A program made the translations under genes and the position numbers. This document shows positions 5,230 to 16,147 of a stretch of 64,000 bases of DNA, piece after piece. The notes beneath the pieces are model-generated. The model had not been told where the DNA came from, did not search any database, and saw only the letters and a program-made list of their open reading frames with translations. How positions within the stretch are numbered: position 1 is the stretch's first letter; each line of letters starts with the position of its first letter. Source of the DNA: an uncultured Bacteroidota bacterium (GTDB lineage Bacteria > Bacteroidota > Bacteroidia > Flavobacteriales > Flavobacteriaceae); assembly GCA_902582405.1 (NCBI GenBank), contig CACHSA010000002.1:62001-126000 (forward strand). The letters are read 5' to 3'.

Positions 5230-5302
5230 TTTTGCTAAAAAATTTAACAAATTTTTATAAATGAAAATTTTAAAAACTTTTGATATTTGAAAAAAATTAA
5301 AA

Positions 5303-6040
5303 ATGAGAAATCACCTATCGTTGCGCTCTGGAAACCCAGTACTTTCAAAAGAAACTTTTAACACTGTTTATTCAAGCTCTGGTAAAATGACAATCGAAGG
5401 AACGGTTAATAAAACTGCACTAAGTTTATTTCTTCTTATTGCCACAGGATATTTAACCTTCAATCCAATTAGTCCAGCTATCATCTTTACTTGTGGTATT
5501 GGCGGTTTTATTGTGGCTATTGTTACAGTTTTTAAAAAACAATGGGCTCCAATTACAGTACCTATTTATGCCATTTTAGAGGGGGCACTGCTAGGGGGTA
5601 TCTCATTTATGTATAACTCCTTATATGATGGTATTGTTACAAATGCAATTTTTTTAACTGTAGGAATCTTACTTGCACTTCTAACCGCCTACAGATCAGG
5701 TATAATTAAGCCTACTGAAAACTTTAAACTCGGTATTTTCGCAGCTACCGGGGGAATAGCCATAGTTTATCTTGTAAATTTTATTATGGGATTTTTTGGT
5801 TCATCTATGGGTATAATGCAAATTGATAATGCGTCTCCTCTTAGCATAGGTTTCAGTCTAGTAGTTGTTATAATTGCTTCACTTAATTTAGTGCTGGACT
5901 TTGACTTTATTGAAGAAGGTGCTGAAAAAGGAGCACCTAAATACATGGAATGGTATGGTGCATTTGGACTACTTGTAACCTTAATTTGGCTCTATCTCGA
6001 AATTCTTAGACTCCTTGCTAAACTAAATTCAAGGAGATAA
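5303..6040 (+). CDS. Bax inhibitor-1/YccA family membrane protein
   Basis: 245 residues with about seven hydrophobic segments after a soluble N-terminal stretch (RSGNPVLSKETF). This layout and the ending FDFIEEGAEKGAPKYMEWYGAFGL are characteristic of the bacterial YccA-like branch of the Bax inhibitor-1 family. Relatives are pH-sensitive cation leak channels (BsYetJ) or modulators of membrane proteolysis (E. coli YccA). ATG start 74 bases after the BNR gene. Housekeeping-like; no regulatory site recognised. Confidence 0.88.
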   Translation: MRNHLSLRSGNPVLSKETFNTVYSSSGKMTIEGTVNKTALSLFLLIATGYLTFNPISPAIIFTCGIGGFIVAIVTVFKKQWAPITVPIYAILEGALLGGISFMYNSLYDGIVTNAIFLTVGILLALLTAYRSGIIKPTENFKLGIFAATGGIAIVYLVNFIMGFFGSSMGIMQIDNASPLSIGFSLVVVIIASLNLVLDFDFIEEGAEKGAPKYMEWYGAFGLLVTLIWLYLEILRLLAKLNSRR

Positions 6041-11592: not shown

Positions 11593-13848
11593 TTAATTGT
11601 ATTTTTTTAATAATTCTAATTGATATTTGATGATGGTATCTTTTGGAAGTCCATGTCCAATGTTTTCTAGAATTACAATTTTTTTGTCCTTTACTGGAGT
11701 CCCAATAAGTTTATTCCAAGGTTTAAAAGACTTTTCATGATCAAAAACTCCGTCTGACTTTCCGACGATGTGAAGGACAGGAATCTTTATCCTTCTTAAA
11801 TATATGTGTGGTTCAATTTCTTTTTTACTTTTTTGAAGCATGAGACCCCCCACGAAGATTGCAGCACTTTTGACCCTATCTTCAATAGCAAGTAAGTAAT
11901 TAGAAGAAACAGATCCCCAACTATATCCTTGATATGAAAGCTTAGATATATCAAATTCCTTCCTTGATTCAATGTAATCTATGACTCTCTTGAAGTCCTT
12001 ACCTATTTTTAATATGGATTGCTTGTACTCCTCAGATTTATTTGGCCACCAAGAATCTATAGTTCTTTTTCTAGATAAAGTTGAGTGATAGACTGGCAAA
12101 ATAACTGCGTATCCTTCATCAAGTAAAAATTTATTATCTCTAATAGAATATTTCTTGAGCCAATTTGTTGTTTTATCAAATAATGCTCCGGCGCTTGGAT
12201 GGTCAATTATTGGTTTTAAATAGTCCTTAAATTTTAAAGAATAGATGATAAATCCAAAAAGTTTTTCATCACTTTTATATGGAGTATCCATTTCAAATCT
12301 CTCCATCTTATAACCCTTTTCAGGAGTCTGTATATCCTCTAAAAGAACTTCCATAGGATAATCCTCGAAATCAAATTGAGATTTATAATACTGAAAAATT
12401 TCATCGCTGACATTTTCTTCTTTATCGAAATCGCGAATATAATTTTTATCATATTTTATAGTGATTTTGTCTTGTTTTCTATCTTTTTCTGAAAATGACT
12501 TTACTAGTCTAAATCCATTTTCGGCTGTCCTTGCAAATGGTGAAAGGCTATAGTAACTACTAAAAGAGTAGGTCGGTTCATTATATGAACCACCAAGTGC
12601 AGAGTAATTAAAATCTGAATCAGGATTTGTTACCCATTCCCTTACATTCCCCGCTATATTTGGCAGTAATTTAAGAGAATCTGGTTCATAAAATACATCA
12701 ACAAGTTTATCTGAATTTAGATTGACTTTTTCCAAATTAGGTAATTTTCCTATATTGAAACCGTGCAAGTTTGCTGCATGTAGCCACTGAAATACATTTG
12801 GCAGTTTTAGGCCCTTAAACCTTGCAAATGCACTAGCTTCAAACCATGAAATATTTGAAACAGGGTAGTTTTCTTCTCCTTTTGGATATTGCCCGTAACG
12901 CCAGTTGCCAGGACCAAATTTTCCAAATTTGTCGGTAAATCTGCCAATCGTATTCTTGTAAGTGTATTCTTTCCCCTTAATAACTATTGGGAAATCCCAA
13001 AATTCTGAATTCTCATAACCACCTTGATCCAAAAATTCTTTAAACTCAATATTTGATACTTCAAACCTTGAAATCCCAAAAGCATCCCAAGAAATGTTTC
13101 TCCCAAAAAATAATCCAGGGAAAACCATAGGTTGATTAACATTCGCACTTTTTAATATAAAATTTTCAGGCAATCTTTCTAAGTATGACAAATTAAACAT
13201 CCCTTTTTGTTCATCTTCTCCTATGTATTCAACATCTCCAGAGATTAATTTAAGATTAAAATCATTCTCTTGACCCAAAGCTGGTACATGTATACTATCC
13301 ATTGGTGCTATTCCAAGATAATTCCATGTTGAATCTCTACCATATTTGATATAAACATCAGTATTGGGCAAGTCACTGTCTACATTTACTACCCAAGAGG
13401 ACTTTTCTAAAAAATCATTTATGATTTTATTGTCGGGATATTCTTTTAGAAGTTCTTTAGAAGTTTTAAATACGTAATAAATATCACCTTTGTCATACGC
13501 ACTAGAAATTTTAGGAAGTAGATCATTAATTAAAATTTCTTCGAAATTAGATTTTCTAAAAAAGTAAATGAACAAGAAAAGGAGTAAAGAAGTGATGACA
13601 ACATTCGCAATCTTAATATAATTTCCTTTTTTTGGTTCCCCTACCTTAGATTTATCAGACTTATTTTTTTTAAAAAATAAAAAAAATAAGGACCCAAGAA
13701 AAGACAAAACAAGTAGAGCAAGTAGAAAATTAAAATATTTATTATCAATAGAATATTTCTTAAACAGCCAGTCTACCCCCTGAAGAATTGTAAATCCAAA
13801 GGCTAAAAAGGCTCCTGAGAATTGAAGAAATTTATTTGACCCTAACAA
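11593..13848 (-). CDS. Membrane-anchored SUMF1-like domain / alpha-beta hydrolase fusion
   Basis: 751 residues from a TTG start (an in-frame stop lies just upstream). Order: two or three membrane segments (about 10-115), a PEGA-like beta domain (about 150-185), a SUMF1/FGE-fold domain (about 245-455), then an alpha/beta hydrolase (about 500-750). SUMF1 marks are SNIEFKEFLDQGG, YPVSNISWFEASAFARFKG, GNVREWV and ENGFRLV. The hydrolase shows the nucleophile elbow GYSWGS, an acid in VGKSDGVFDH and the His in NIGHG. The SUMF1 domain lacks the paired Cys of true formylglycine-generating enzymes. Relatives carry an N-terminal protein kinase, absent here. It lies 100 bases upstream of the GH63 gene on the same strand. 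Confidence 0.75.
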   Translation of the reverse strand: MLGSNKFLQFSGAFLAFGFTILQGVDWLFKKYSIDNKYFNFLLALLVLSFLGSLFFLFFKKNKSDKSKVGEPKKGNYIKIANVVITSLLLFLFIYFFRKSNFEEILINDLLPKISSAYDKGDIYYVFKTSKELLKEYPDNKIINDFLEKSSWVVNVDSDLPNTDVYIKYGRDSTWNYLGIAPMDSIHVPALGQENDFNLKLISGDVEYIGEDEQKGMFNLSYLERLPENFILKSANVNQPMVFPGLFFGRNISWDAFGISRFEVSNIEFKEFLDQGGYENSEFWDFPIVIKGKEYTYKNTIGRFTDKFGKFGPGNWRYGQYPKGEENYPVSNISWFEASAFARFKGLKLPNVFQWLHAANLHGFNIGKLPNLEKVNLNSDKLVDVFYEPDSLKLLPNIAGNVREWVTNPDSDFNYSALGGSYNEPTYSFSSYYSLSPFARTAENGFRLVKSFSEKDRKQDKITIKYDKNYIRDFDKEENVSDEIFQYYKSQFDFEDYPMEVLLEDIQTPEKGYKMERFEMDTPYKSDEKLFGFIIYSLKFKDYLKPIIDHPSAGALFDKTTNWLKKYSIRDNKFLLDEGYAVILPVYHSTLSRKRTIDSWWPNKSEEYKQSILKIGKDFKRVIDYIESRKEFDISKLSYQGYSWGSVSSNYLLAIEDRVKSAAIFVGGLMLQKSKKEIEPHIYLRRIKIPVLHIVGKSDGVFDHEKSFKPWNKLIGTPVKDKKIVILENIGHGLPKDTIIKYQLELLKKYN

Positions 13849-13990
13849 ATCAGATTATGGTTTAATGGTTAACTAATATAAAAATTATTCTTAACCAATT
13901 CAATTTACGATTAAGATCATATTGAAGAAATTTTTTGCAGAAATAGTCAATAAGTAATTAAAAAAGATTAAAAATGGTAAAATATTAGAT

Positions 13991-14040
13991 AAAAATGATC
14001 AAAAATGATCAAAAATGATCAAAAATGATCAAAAATGATA
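13991..14040. repeat. Tandem decamer array AAAAATGATC (4 exact + 1 variant)
   Basis: Four exact copies of AAAAATGATC in a row (13991-14030) and a fifth ending GATA. Each junction creates the palindrome TGATCA, so four sites sit at exact 10-base spacing. Degenerate copies seem to precede it (AAAAAGATTAAAAATGG from about 13960). A5 tracts repeated every 10 bases predict strong intrinsic bending. Confidence 0.95.
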
Positions 14041-14073
14041 AAATTTTCAAAGTCGAGAAACACATGTAATATT

Positions 14074-14098
14074 TAAAAATCTTGAGATTAGATTTTTA
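14074..14098. other. Perfect 9-bp inverted repeat (hairpin or protein site)
   Basis: TAAAAATCT, a 7-base loop TGAGATT, then AGATTTTTA: a perfect 9-bp stem located between the two repeat arrays. It is AT-rich and has no T-tract placed as in a terminator, so a binding site or a cruciform is as likely as an RNA hairpin. Confidence 0.6.
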
Positions 14099-14100
14099 TC

Positions 14101-14114
14101 TGATTTTAAAATCA
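14101..14114. promoter_or_regulatory. 14-bp perfect palindrome TGATTTTAAAATCA
   Basis: A perfect palindrome whose ends, TGAT and ATCA, are the same half-sites that overlap to form TGATCA in the flanking arrays. It starts three bases after the 9-bp inverted repeat. It could be the operator form of the same recognition sequence; no regulator is identified. Confidence 0.4.
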
Positions 14115-14120
14115 ACAAAA

Positions 14121-14210
14121 AGTGATAAAAATGATCAAAAACAATCAAAAATGATCAAAAACAATCAAAAATGATCAAAATATGATCAAAAAAGATCGAG
14201 AAATGATCAA
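14121..14210. repeat. Second decamer array, alternating ATGATCAAAA / ACAATCAAAA
   Basis: From 14131 the units are ATGATCAAAA, ACAATCAAAA, ATGATCAAAA, ACAATCAAAA, ATGATCAAAA. They are followed by TATGATCAAA, AAAGATCGAG and AAATGATCAA. The alternation gives a 20-base higher-order unit on top of the 10-base period. Five TGATCA palindromes are present here, nine in the whole 215-base region. Confidence 0.93.
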
Positions 14211-14271
14211 TTTTTGAAATAAATTAAATTAAAATTCGAATATTAAAACGATGTCTTCACAATGTGAATAC

Positions 14272-14279
14272 TATATTTG
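14272..14279 (+). promoter_or_regulatory. -7 promoter element for the DUF6150-like/nnr unit
   Basis: TATATTTG, an exact Bacteroidota -7 match, 17 bases upstream of the ATG at 14297 and 60 bases after the last TGATCA. It overlaps codons of the track's GTG start (14264), which argues that translation begins at 14297. No clear TTG -33 box is visible. Confidence 0.5.
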
Positions 14280-14296: not shown

Positions 14297-14626
14297 ATGA
14301 GAATACTTGTAGCAATTTTATGTTTTTCTCCACTTTGTTTGTTTTCACAGAAAATATTTTCAGTAAAATATCCCTCGCAAGCAGATATTAAAGTATTTGT
14401 AACCAGATACTCTTCTCAAGCAGACCTTAATGTATTTAAAGTTAAATATCAATCCCAGGCTATTAAAAACGAGGGTAAATGGTTTTTCGTAAAATACCAA
14501 TCTCAGGCAGACAAAAAAATTTACTTTGTAGACTATGCATCACAAAGTGATTTAAAAATATTTTTTACTAAATACTCTTCTCAAAGCGGCTGGAGAAATA
14601 AAGAAAAGGTTCATCTTCTGTATTAA
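14297..14626 (+). CDS. Secreted mini-protein with six 13-residue Y-x-SQ-A/S-D repeats (DUF6150-like)
   Basis: 109 residues from the ATG at 14297. A signal peptide (MRILVAILCFSPLCLFSQ) is followed by six repeats, KIFSVKYPSQADI, KVFVTRYSSQADL, NVFKVKYQSQA, KWFFVKYQSQADK, KIYFVDYASQSDL and KIFFTKYSSQSGW. Nearly the whole mature protein is repeat. Each unit reads as a beta-strand plus an SQxD turn, so a small beta-solenoid or stacked sheet is likely. I recall this pattern as family DUF6150 of Flavobacteriia, function unknown. It is followed 12 bases later by nnr and preceded by the TGATCA repeat region. The track's GTG start at 14264 would overlap the promoter. Confidence 0.78.
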   Translation: MRILVAILCFSPLCLFSQKIFSVKYPSQADIKVFVTRYSSQADLNVFKVKYQSQAIKNEGKWFFVKYQSQADKKIYFVDYASQSDLKIFFTKYSSQSGWRNKEKVHLLY

Positions 14627-14638
14627 AAATTAAATGCT

Positions 14639-16147
14639 ATGACTAAACTTTTAAGCTATTCTGAAATCAAAAAAATCGATAGCAAAACAACAGAAAATAA
14701 AAATATAACATCACTTGATTTAATGTCTGATGCAGTTCTAGCAGTCGAAAAGTGGATACTAAATAATTATAAAAAAAATCAAAAATTTTCAATTATTTGT
14801 GGAAATGGAAATAATGGAGCAGATGGAATCTTACTTTCCTGTAAATTGATGACGAAAAATTATAAAGTTCAGGTATACTATATGAATGAAGTTGGATCTC
14901 CTGAATTCAATCATCAATTCAAATATGCAAAAAGTATGGGAGTAAATTTGGAAAAAATAGATTTTGATAACTTAAGATTAATTGATTTTTCAGGTGTGAT
15001 TATTGACTGTATTTTTGGGGTAGGGCTTAACAGAGAAGTCACTGGCAAGTATTTAAAGCTTATAAATATTATTAATTCACTTAAAAAAAAAATAATTTCA
15101 ATTGACACTCCATCTGGTATTTCAGCAGATACATATTTCTCGTCAAATCATATCATCCCAGATATGGTTTTAACCTTTCATGCTCCAAAACTTACTTTTT
15201 TTTTCAGTGAATACTTAGACAAAATTAAAAATGTAGAAATCTTGGATATTGGTTTAGATAATTCTGAATACAAATGTATGGATGGAGTTGGTGAATTAAT
15301 TGATATAGACATGATTGCCAAAATATATAAGCCTAGGGAAAAAGTAGTACACAAAGGCAACTTTGGGCATGCCCTTTTATTTGCGGGGAGTGAGGGTAAA
15401 TATGGAGCCTCTATATTATGTGGGAAGTCTTTGTTTAGAAGTGGGGCTGGATTACTTACTTTTTTATGTGATGAAAAAACGAAAGAATTTATTTACAAAT
15501 CGCTCCCCGAGGCAATGACATCTGATATTATCATTAAAGACCAATATTCCATTAGTGCAGAAATAAAAAAATACAAAGTGATTGGAATTGGACCAGGTCT
15601 TGGAACCACGAAACAAGTAATTGAAAATTTTAAAAAGATAATTGGTGAAGTGCATTATCCAATTGTAGTTGATGCTGATGGTTTAAATATTTTATCAAAG
15701 GATAAAGATTTATTTGAAAAATTACCAAAAGAGTCTATTTTAACTCCTCATGTTGGAGAATTCAAAAGGTTTGCTGGAAACTTTGAAAACTCAAATGAAA
15801 AGATAATGCTGCAAAGAAGAATTAGTAAAAAATATGGATTAAATATTGTTTTAAAAGGTCCCTATACAACAATGACTGATTCAAAGGGGAATCTTTATAT
15901 AAATACATCTGGAAACTCTGGTCTGGCTACTGCAGGTTCAGGAGATGTTTTAACAGGTATTATAACAGGGCTTTTAGCTCAAAATTATACACCGTTCAAG
16001 GCAATGATTTCTGGAGTTTTCCTTCACGGTTTGTCAGCTGATATAGCTGTAAAAAAATCACATGTTAATTCTCTGATCGCATCTGATATAACTGAAAATT
16101 TGTCAAGTGCATTTAAGGCGTTAGAAAAAGTCATCACTTCAAATTAA
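14639..16147 (+). CDS. nnr: Bifunctional NAD(P)H-hydrate repair enzyme Nnr
   Basis: 502 residues, the usual fused length. The N-terminal YjeF epimerase domain (about 1-215) shows ICGNGNNGADGILLS. The C-terminal ribokinase-fold dehydratase domain (about 225-500) shows GIGPGLGT, VVDADGLNIL, LTPHVGEFKRF and ATAGSGDVLTGIITGLLAQ. It epimerises and dehydrates damaged NAD(P)HX back to NAD(P)H. It lies 12 bases after the DUF6150-like gene and probably shares its promoter. The 3' end overlaps the convergent Stealth gene by 14 bases, with no terminator between them. Confidence 0.93.
   Translation: MTKLLSYSEIKKIDSKTTENKNITSLDLMSDAVLAVEKWILNNYKKNQKFSIICGNGNNGADGILLSCKLMTKNYKVQVYYMNEVGSPEFNHQFKYAKSMGVNLEKIDFDNLRLIDFSGVIIDCIFGVGLNREVTGKYLKLINIINSLKKKIISIDTPSGISADTYFSSNHIIPDMVLTFHAPKLTFFFSEYLDKIKNVEILDIGLDNSEYKCMDGVGELIDIDMIAKIYKPREKVVHKGNFGHALLFAGSEGKYGASILCGKSLFRSGAGLLTFLCDEKTKEFIYKSLPEAMTSDIIIKDQYSISAEIKKYKVIGIGPGLGTTKQVIENFKKIIGEVHYPIVVDADGLNILSKDKDLFEKLPKESILTPHVGEFKRFAGNFENSNEKIMLQRRISKKYGLNIVLKGPYTTMTDSKGNLYINTSGNSGLATAGSGDVLTGIITGLLAQNYTPFKAMISGVFLHGLSADIAVKKSHVNSLIASDITENLSSAFKALEKVITSN

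Follow-up and report, generated by a model that had tools for sequence, protein, structure and literature searches.

The decamer arrays upstream of a DUF6150 repeat protein gene in an uncultured marine Flavobacteriaceae bacterium are best explained as an intrinsically curved DNA element made of helically phased A-tracts, a reading to which a probability of about one half is assigned. Such arrays are located at a small number of fixed intergenic positions in each genome; the geometry persists through changes in core sequence and copy number. This pattern suggests that the bend, or the regular spacing of the A-runs, is maintained and the palindrome TGATCA is not. The window (i.e., the whole 64-kb stretch of DNA that was analyzed) originates from a draft genome of 1.36 Mb in 49 contigs (G000), and its arrays are referred to as locus A.

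Sequence and geometry of the arrays

TGATCA occurs 26 times in the window, which is near the expected 23.4 ± 4.9; nine of these copies are packed into 215 bp (Poisson P ~2e-17, with the rate outside as reference). The original prediction of nine TGATCA copies in two decamer arrays, the first being homogeneous, with an inverted repeat and a palindrome between them, agrees with the counts, with the TRF calls (13960-14044 and 14108-14210), and with the sequence (Table 1). Weaker A-tracts precede array 1 from ~13960. The 20-bp alternation proposed for array 2 is present in 14127-14177 only, and the spacing beyond is irregular. TGATCA is not a motif in its own right; it arises as a by-product where the unit AAAAATGATC runs into the next A-tract. 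A coding repeat is ruled out, since the 10-bp unit puts its TGA into every frame and thus creates stops in all of them. An Rfam search of the array region matched no family. Elsewhere in the window, an intergenic, degenerate AT-rich 26-bp tandem repeat (5237-5303) bears no relation to the decamer.

Table 1. Features of locus A (window coordinates) and of the convergent gap, locus D
Feature	Position	Strand	Description
Left neighbor, divergent	11593..13848	-	FGE-sulfatase and dienelactone hydrolase-like domains
Array 1	13991..14040	+	four AAAAATGATC units and one AAAAATGAT variant
Spacer separating arrays 1 and 2	14041..14116	.	9-bp inverted repeat and 14-bp palindrome
9-bp inverted repeat	14074-14082/14090-14098		TAAAAATCT/AGATTTTTA, in spacer
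14-bp palindrome	14101-14114		TGATTTTAAAATCA, in spacer; read from sequence
Array 2	14117..14210	+	phased A-tracts; cores GTGAT, TGATC, CAATC, TATGATC; 3' end degenerate
Palindrome	14256..14268	.	TTCACAATGTGAA, directly upstream of the DUF6150 -7 box
-7 element match	14272..14279	+	TATATTTG, matches Bacteroidota TAnnTTTG; upstream of DUF6150/nnr
DUF6150 repeat protein gene	14297..14626	+	PF19647; downstream of arrays
nnr	14639..16147	+	NAD(P)H-hydrate epimerase/dehydratase; after DUF6150 gene
Locus D			gap between convergent DNA glycosylase and aldo-keto reductase genes; second genus

Across the arrays of all loci, the tracts recur every 10-11 bp with a mean step of 10.24 bp (33 contiguous runs, 287 tracts), i.e., as the 4-6 bp A-tracts at the helical period that characterize a phased A-tract element. 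The phase is held over several steps: the variance of the k-step spacing stays at ~1.2-1.6 for k = 2-6, versus 1.8-3.5 for shuffled step orders (0 of 2000 shuffles), a contrast that is supporting rather than decisive because jitter of the A-run boundaries accounts for part of it. Of the 23 intergenic regions, 22 reached p ≤ 0.01 in periodograms compared with dinucleotide shuffles, and the remaining one reached 0.05. The tracts lie almost exclusively on one strand, with 287 A4+ runs versus three T4+ runs in 2764 bp of array. The cores between them comprise 99 distinct sequences (e.g., TGATC, TGATG, TGGCC, GAGCT, and CAGTC) with a GC content of 42.5%, versus 17.4% in the flanking intergenic DNA.

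When ten mostly heterogeneous arrays are compared by position, A makes up 95-99% at the four tract positions and the commonest core base reaches 35-57%, although recognition based on A-runs favors this contrast. The conservation of the tracts is somewhat inflated, because the arrays were both found and scored by their A-runs, and broken tracts were bridged by interpolation (13 of 144 and 8 of 132, about 6-9%). The sequence patterns were relaxed stepwise, from exact TGATC units through TGATN to any core. Among 89 intergenic gaps of the fetched contigs, those with arrays contain 5-18 phased tracts and every other gap at most three. Few other strong tandem arrays were called by TRF in 443 kb of these genomes; the strongest non-decamer repeat in the fetched contigs is a nine-base tandem array, TGTATCACT (G621:C8 24858-24961, L206:4858-4961). 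Scrambling in close relatives, which had been named as the mark of slippage-prone junk, was observed for the sequence of the arrays and not for their geometry.

Strong planar curvature is predicted by a wedge model with Bolshoy wedge parameters, and all values are predictions only. The two arrays rank first and second among the 100-bp segments of the 64 kb (segments starting at 13957 and 14117 for arrays 1 and 2, respectively), with contour to end-to-end ratios of 2.67 and 2.23, followed by 1.63 for the third segment. Most arrays at other loci yield 2.2-5.3, while locus D of G622 yields 1.67. Together with the phasing kept in relatives, these predicted ranks support the expectation that the phased tracts should bend the DNA. 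Curvature was compared three times (whole window, rpmF-fabH gaps, and intergenic gaps), the p-values being nominal. The third segment, at ~46204, covers the 3'-terminal part of an acyltransferase-like gene together with the following gap, and contains no array.

Loci and taxonomic spread

At locus A, nnr is probably co-transcribed with the DUF6150 gene, because the gap between them is only 12 bp. The left neighbor is a different gene in G002 and G004. A distance of 78 bp separates the end of the final phased tract in array 2 from TATATTTG downstream, and the corresponding distance to TAnnTTTG is 50-78 bp in all six cases from loci A and B. The palindrome preceding the -7 box is kept as TTCACGATGTGAA in G002 and as TTCACAATGTGAA in G005; the window has no other TTCACnnnGTGAA, and the palindrome resembles an operator.

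Pattern searches also covered the source genome itself, where the AAAAATGATC-type unit forms an array at one further locus only: locus B (C11:16138-16234), which lies upstream of a gene for a predicted lipoprotein that matches no Pfam family. In this genus (seven genomes), five genomes gave pattern matches, and true arrays are found in G000, G001, G002, G004, and G005. Locus A is complete in G000 and G002 (in the latter with degenerate units) and cut in G004, whereas the locus B array is present in G000, G001, G004, and G005. Copy number and cores at both loci differ between the congeners and G000. All genomes are drafts and several arrays sit at contig ends; contigs of G004, G005, and G006 stop at or near the actual or expected array site. 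The further phased-tract matches in congeners that were inspected lie in coding sequence (the rpmG/DUF4295 region and mraY) and add no further array. Outside the genus, no array adjoins the orthologs of the DUF6150 gene or of the locus B lipoprotein gene, and transfer of the arrays along with the downstream gene is therefore rejected.

An exact 27-mer search of the GTDB collection returned six records, all from uncultured Bacteroidetes or Flavobacteriaceae: G004, G005, AG-319-P13, MED-G13, BS301-5m-G29, and AG-313-I14. In AG-319-P13 the array lies between a divergent gene pair (locus E), and in MED-G13 it adjoins accB, also between divergent genes (locus F). The last two records are members of a second genus (22 genomes), in which arrays occupy two loci, C (the rpmF-fabH gap) and D. 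An order-wide sample of 398 genomes added one array genome, G310, from another family, with the array next to fabH; AG-319-P13, MED-G13, and G310 are thus the three array genomes beyond both genera. The unit AAAAATGATC is favored at unrelated loci and in several genera. The placement upstream of DUF6150/nnr is conserved where it is visible among the congeners (G000 and G002), but comparable arrays occur elsewhere, at loci with no relation to it, one of them a convergent gene pair. Most Flavobacteriaceae have no such arrays at loci A and B, and most also gave none in the order-wide pattern scan. No exact 23-mer of the array was found in viral contigs, and a phage or mobile array was rejected on this ground. 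Gene calls are ORFs, and counts over genomes reached through the loci ignore kinship.

Locus D was spotted by eye first and scored afterwards. Each of the ten genomes having the aldo-keto reductase gene shows same-strand A-tracts in 10-11 bp steps, with the cores differing by species (GAGCT in G633, TGACC/TGGCC in G630, CGATC in G642, and CAGTC/TAGCC in G637); the adjacent gene shares 69-83% DNA identity among the ten species. As in the window, an AT-rich spacer splitting two arrays recurs. The gap holds the promoter of neither gene, so the array is not merely a promoter part and the promoter-only account is rejected as a general explanation.

At locus C, three second-genus species have the array directly after rpmF, at the position that a GC hairpin terminator occupies in typical relatives. 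In 29 of 37 other Flavobacteriaceae, the predicted curvature of the rpmF-fabH gap exceeds that of the gap's dinucleotide shuffles, versus 8 of 82 non-array gaps of the fetched contigs (nominal Fisher p ~2e-13), a comparison that is only indicative because the control gaps come from different species. The arrays of the second genus may have been amplified from a curved region of the rpmF-fabH type. The region upstream of fabH is itself predicted to be curved and carries loosely phased T-tracts in most of the 37 Flavobacteriaceae, many of which keep the GC hairpin after rpmF.

Possible function and competing explanations

In a curved element, unit duplication and slippage would generate and homogenize the arrays, while selection would preserve the tract spacing because the curve is useful; an HU/IHF-type protein would probably stabilize the curve. 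At loci A and B, the array would most likely serve as an upstream bent-DNA or UP-like promoter element, because it ends at a short distance upstream of TAnnTTTG, and the similarity of this distance at the two loci counts in favor of the curved element. At locus D, where no promoter part of either gene is possible, it would most likely act on local supercoiling or chromosome folding. A single curved element that aids promoters and affects supercoiling or folding could cover loci A, B, and D. Several observations argue against the curved element: it is dispensable, since most Flavobacteriaceae lack it at loci A and B and in the order-wide scan; pure curvature would permit phased T-tracts, yet the polarity is nearly absolute; and the orientation of transcription around the arrays varies by locus. 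The GC skew around eight arrays is weak and inconsistent, and a role in origin, terminus, or replication polarity was rejected for this reason.

Because of this polarity, the strongest rival is a polar array whose A-tract and loose YRRY core are read by a specific protein on one helix face, in an iteron-, ParR/parC-, or silencer-like manner, for segregation, silencing, or anchoring. The one-strand bias, the GC-enriched cores, the favored AAAAATGATC unit at unrelated loci in several genera, the small number of sites per genome, and the paired arrays flanking an AT-rich inverted repeat at several loci are all consistent with it. It is nevertheless considered rather unlikely: cores such as GAGCT, CAGTC, and TGGCC have little in common, viral contigs gave no match, and no partner gene accompanies the arrays, whose neighbors are ordinary genes (DUF6150/nnr, the predicted lipoprotein, DNA glycosylase/aldo-keto reductase, and rpmF/fabH). 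Neither a linked partition operon nor a conserved repeat sequence, as expected of a partition site, was found, the cores being variable. Similarly doubtful is the notion of functionless, tolerated minisatellites produced by slippage and homogenization, in which the founding unit would supply period and polarity. Variable copy number, homogenized units, assemblies that break at arrays in several cases, and the lack of arrays in most relatives fit such an origin. However, mostly heterogeneous arrays combine diverged cores with kept tracts and phase, GC stays in the cores despite the AT-rich genome, the locus D array persists across ten species, other strong tandem arrays are rare in the 443 kb, and independent slippage would not predict the AAAAATGATC unit at unrelated loci. 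Neutral slippage accounts for homogenization and copy number, but would not readily account for conserved tracts beside diverged cores.

The position of the arrays after rpmF, in place of the GC hairpin of typical relatives, and the need of the two convergent genes at locus D for termination would suit a hairpin-free multi-U terminator at loci C and D, formed by the T-tract strand in the transcript. This is very unlikely, as relatives with the hairpin also have loosely phased T-tracts in their fabH leader, and a terminator-only account is rejected by the wrong orientation elsewhere: the A strand is the sense strand at locus B, and divergent genes flank loci A, E, and F. Least probable of all is a cooperative or methylation-sensitive control region with the TGATCA palindrome as its functional unit, as originally envisaged from the nine in-phase copies in the window. 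This proposal is not supported, because the cores vary from species to species and GATC is missing from every core of five arrays (C of G622, G626, and G631, D of G633, and that of G310); most other arrays include GATC-less units, and the relatives do not keep a cluster of GATC sites. Going beyond the curved element as such, streamlined marine Flavobacteriales might possess a kind of chromosomal element not described before, whose identity lies in DNA geometry and strand polarity rather than in its sequence. Each genome would carry one or two of these curved arrays at genus-fixed sites, and a specialized architectural protein would read them to fold or insulate the chromosome; this extension is judged improbable.

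Relation to known systems

The limited literature collection that was searched holds no account of the unit AAAAATGATC or of such arrays in Bacteroidota. Most known cases of bacterial bent DNA concern either individual promoters or a periodicity spread over chromosome segments. Discrete arrays keeping helical phase amid the turnover of their letters would constitute a natural experiment on how cells read DNA shape, and arrays between convergent genes would link curvature with supercoiling or chromosome folding.

ParR/parC or iteron-type centromeres consist of two arrays of ~10-11 bp repeats flanking a spacer. The window arrays have the same layout; in contrast to these centromeres, no partition gene was seen near the present arrays and the repeat sequence is not conserved. 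Genome-wide A-tract periodicity has been linked to nucleoid-associated proteins (PMC3940949; PMC3431218). The two phenomena share helically phased A-tracts and a possible nucleoid-folding signal, but the described periodicity extends over chromosome segments, whereas here each genome has one or two dense, separate arrays among otherwise ordinary gaps. The TAACTGA direct repeats of Beggiatoaceae, Cyanobacteria, and some Bacteroidetes (PMC4679880) are likewise short intergenic arrays in marine bacteria with no function assigned; they differ in being heptamers off the helical period, with a fixed sequence, 169 sets in one genome, and a position mostly right before start codons.

A close parallel for loci A and B comes from the Mannheimia leukotoxin (lkt) promoter, whose upstream phased A-tract repeats have been described as enhancers; related bent upstream DNA cited there includes that of Clostridium perfringens plc, along with upstream A-tracts and the RNA polymerase alpha subunit (PMC2697988). 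Both systems contain tandem A-tract units at 10-11 bp upstream of a promoter, with copy number varying among relatives and with curvature, which is predicted here. The location just upstream of a promoter, typical of bent-DNA promoters, is matched at loci A and B by TAnnTTTG and is not matched at locus D. Unlike those of lkt, the present arrays recur at several unlinked loci, which include a site within an operon and a gap between convergent genes, their cores are GC-enriched and turn over, and they comprise up to ~18 phased tracts.
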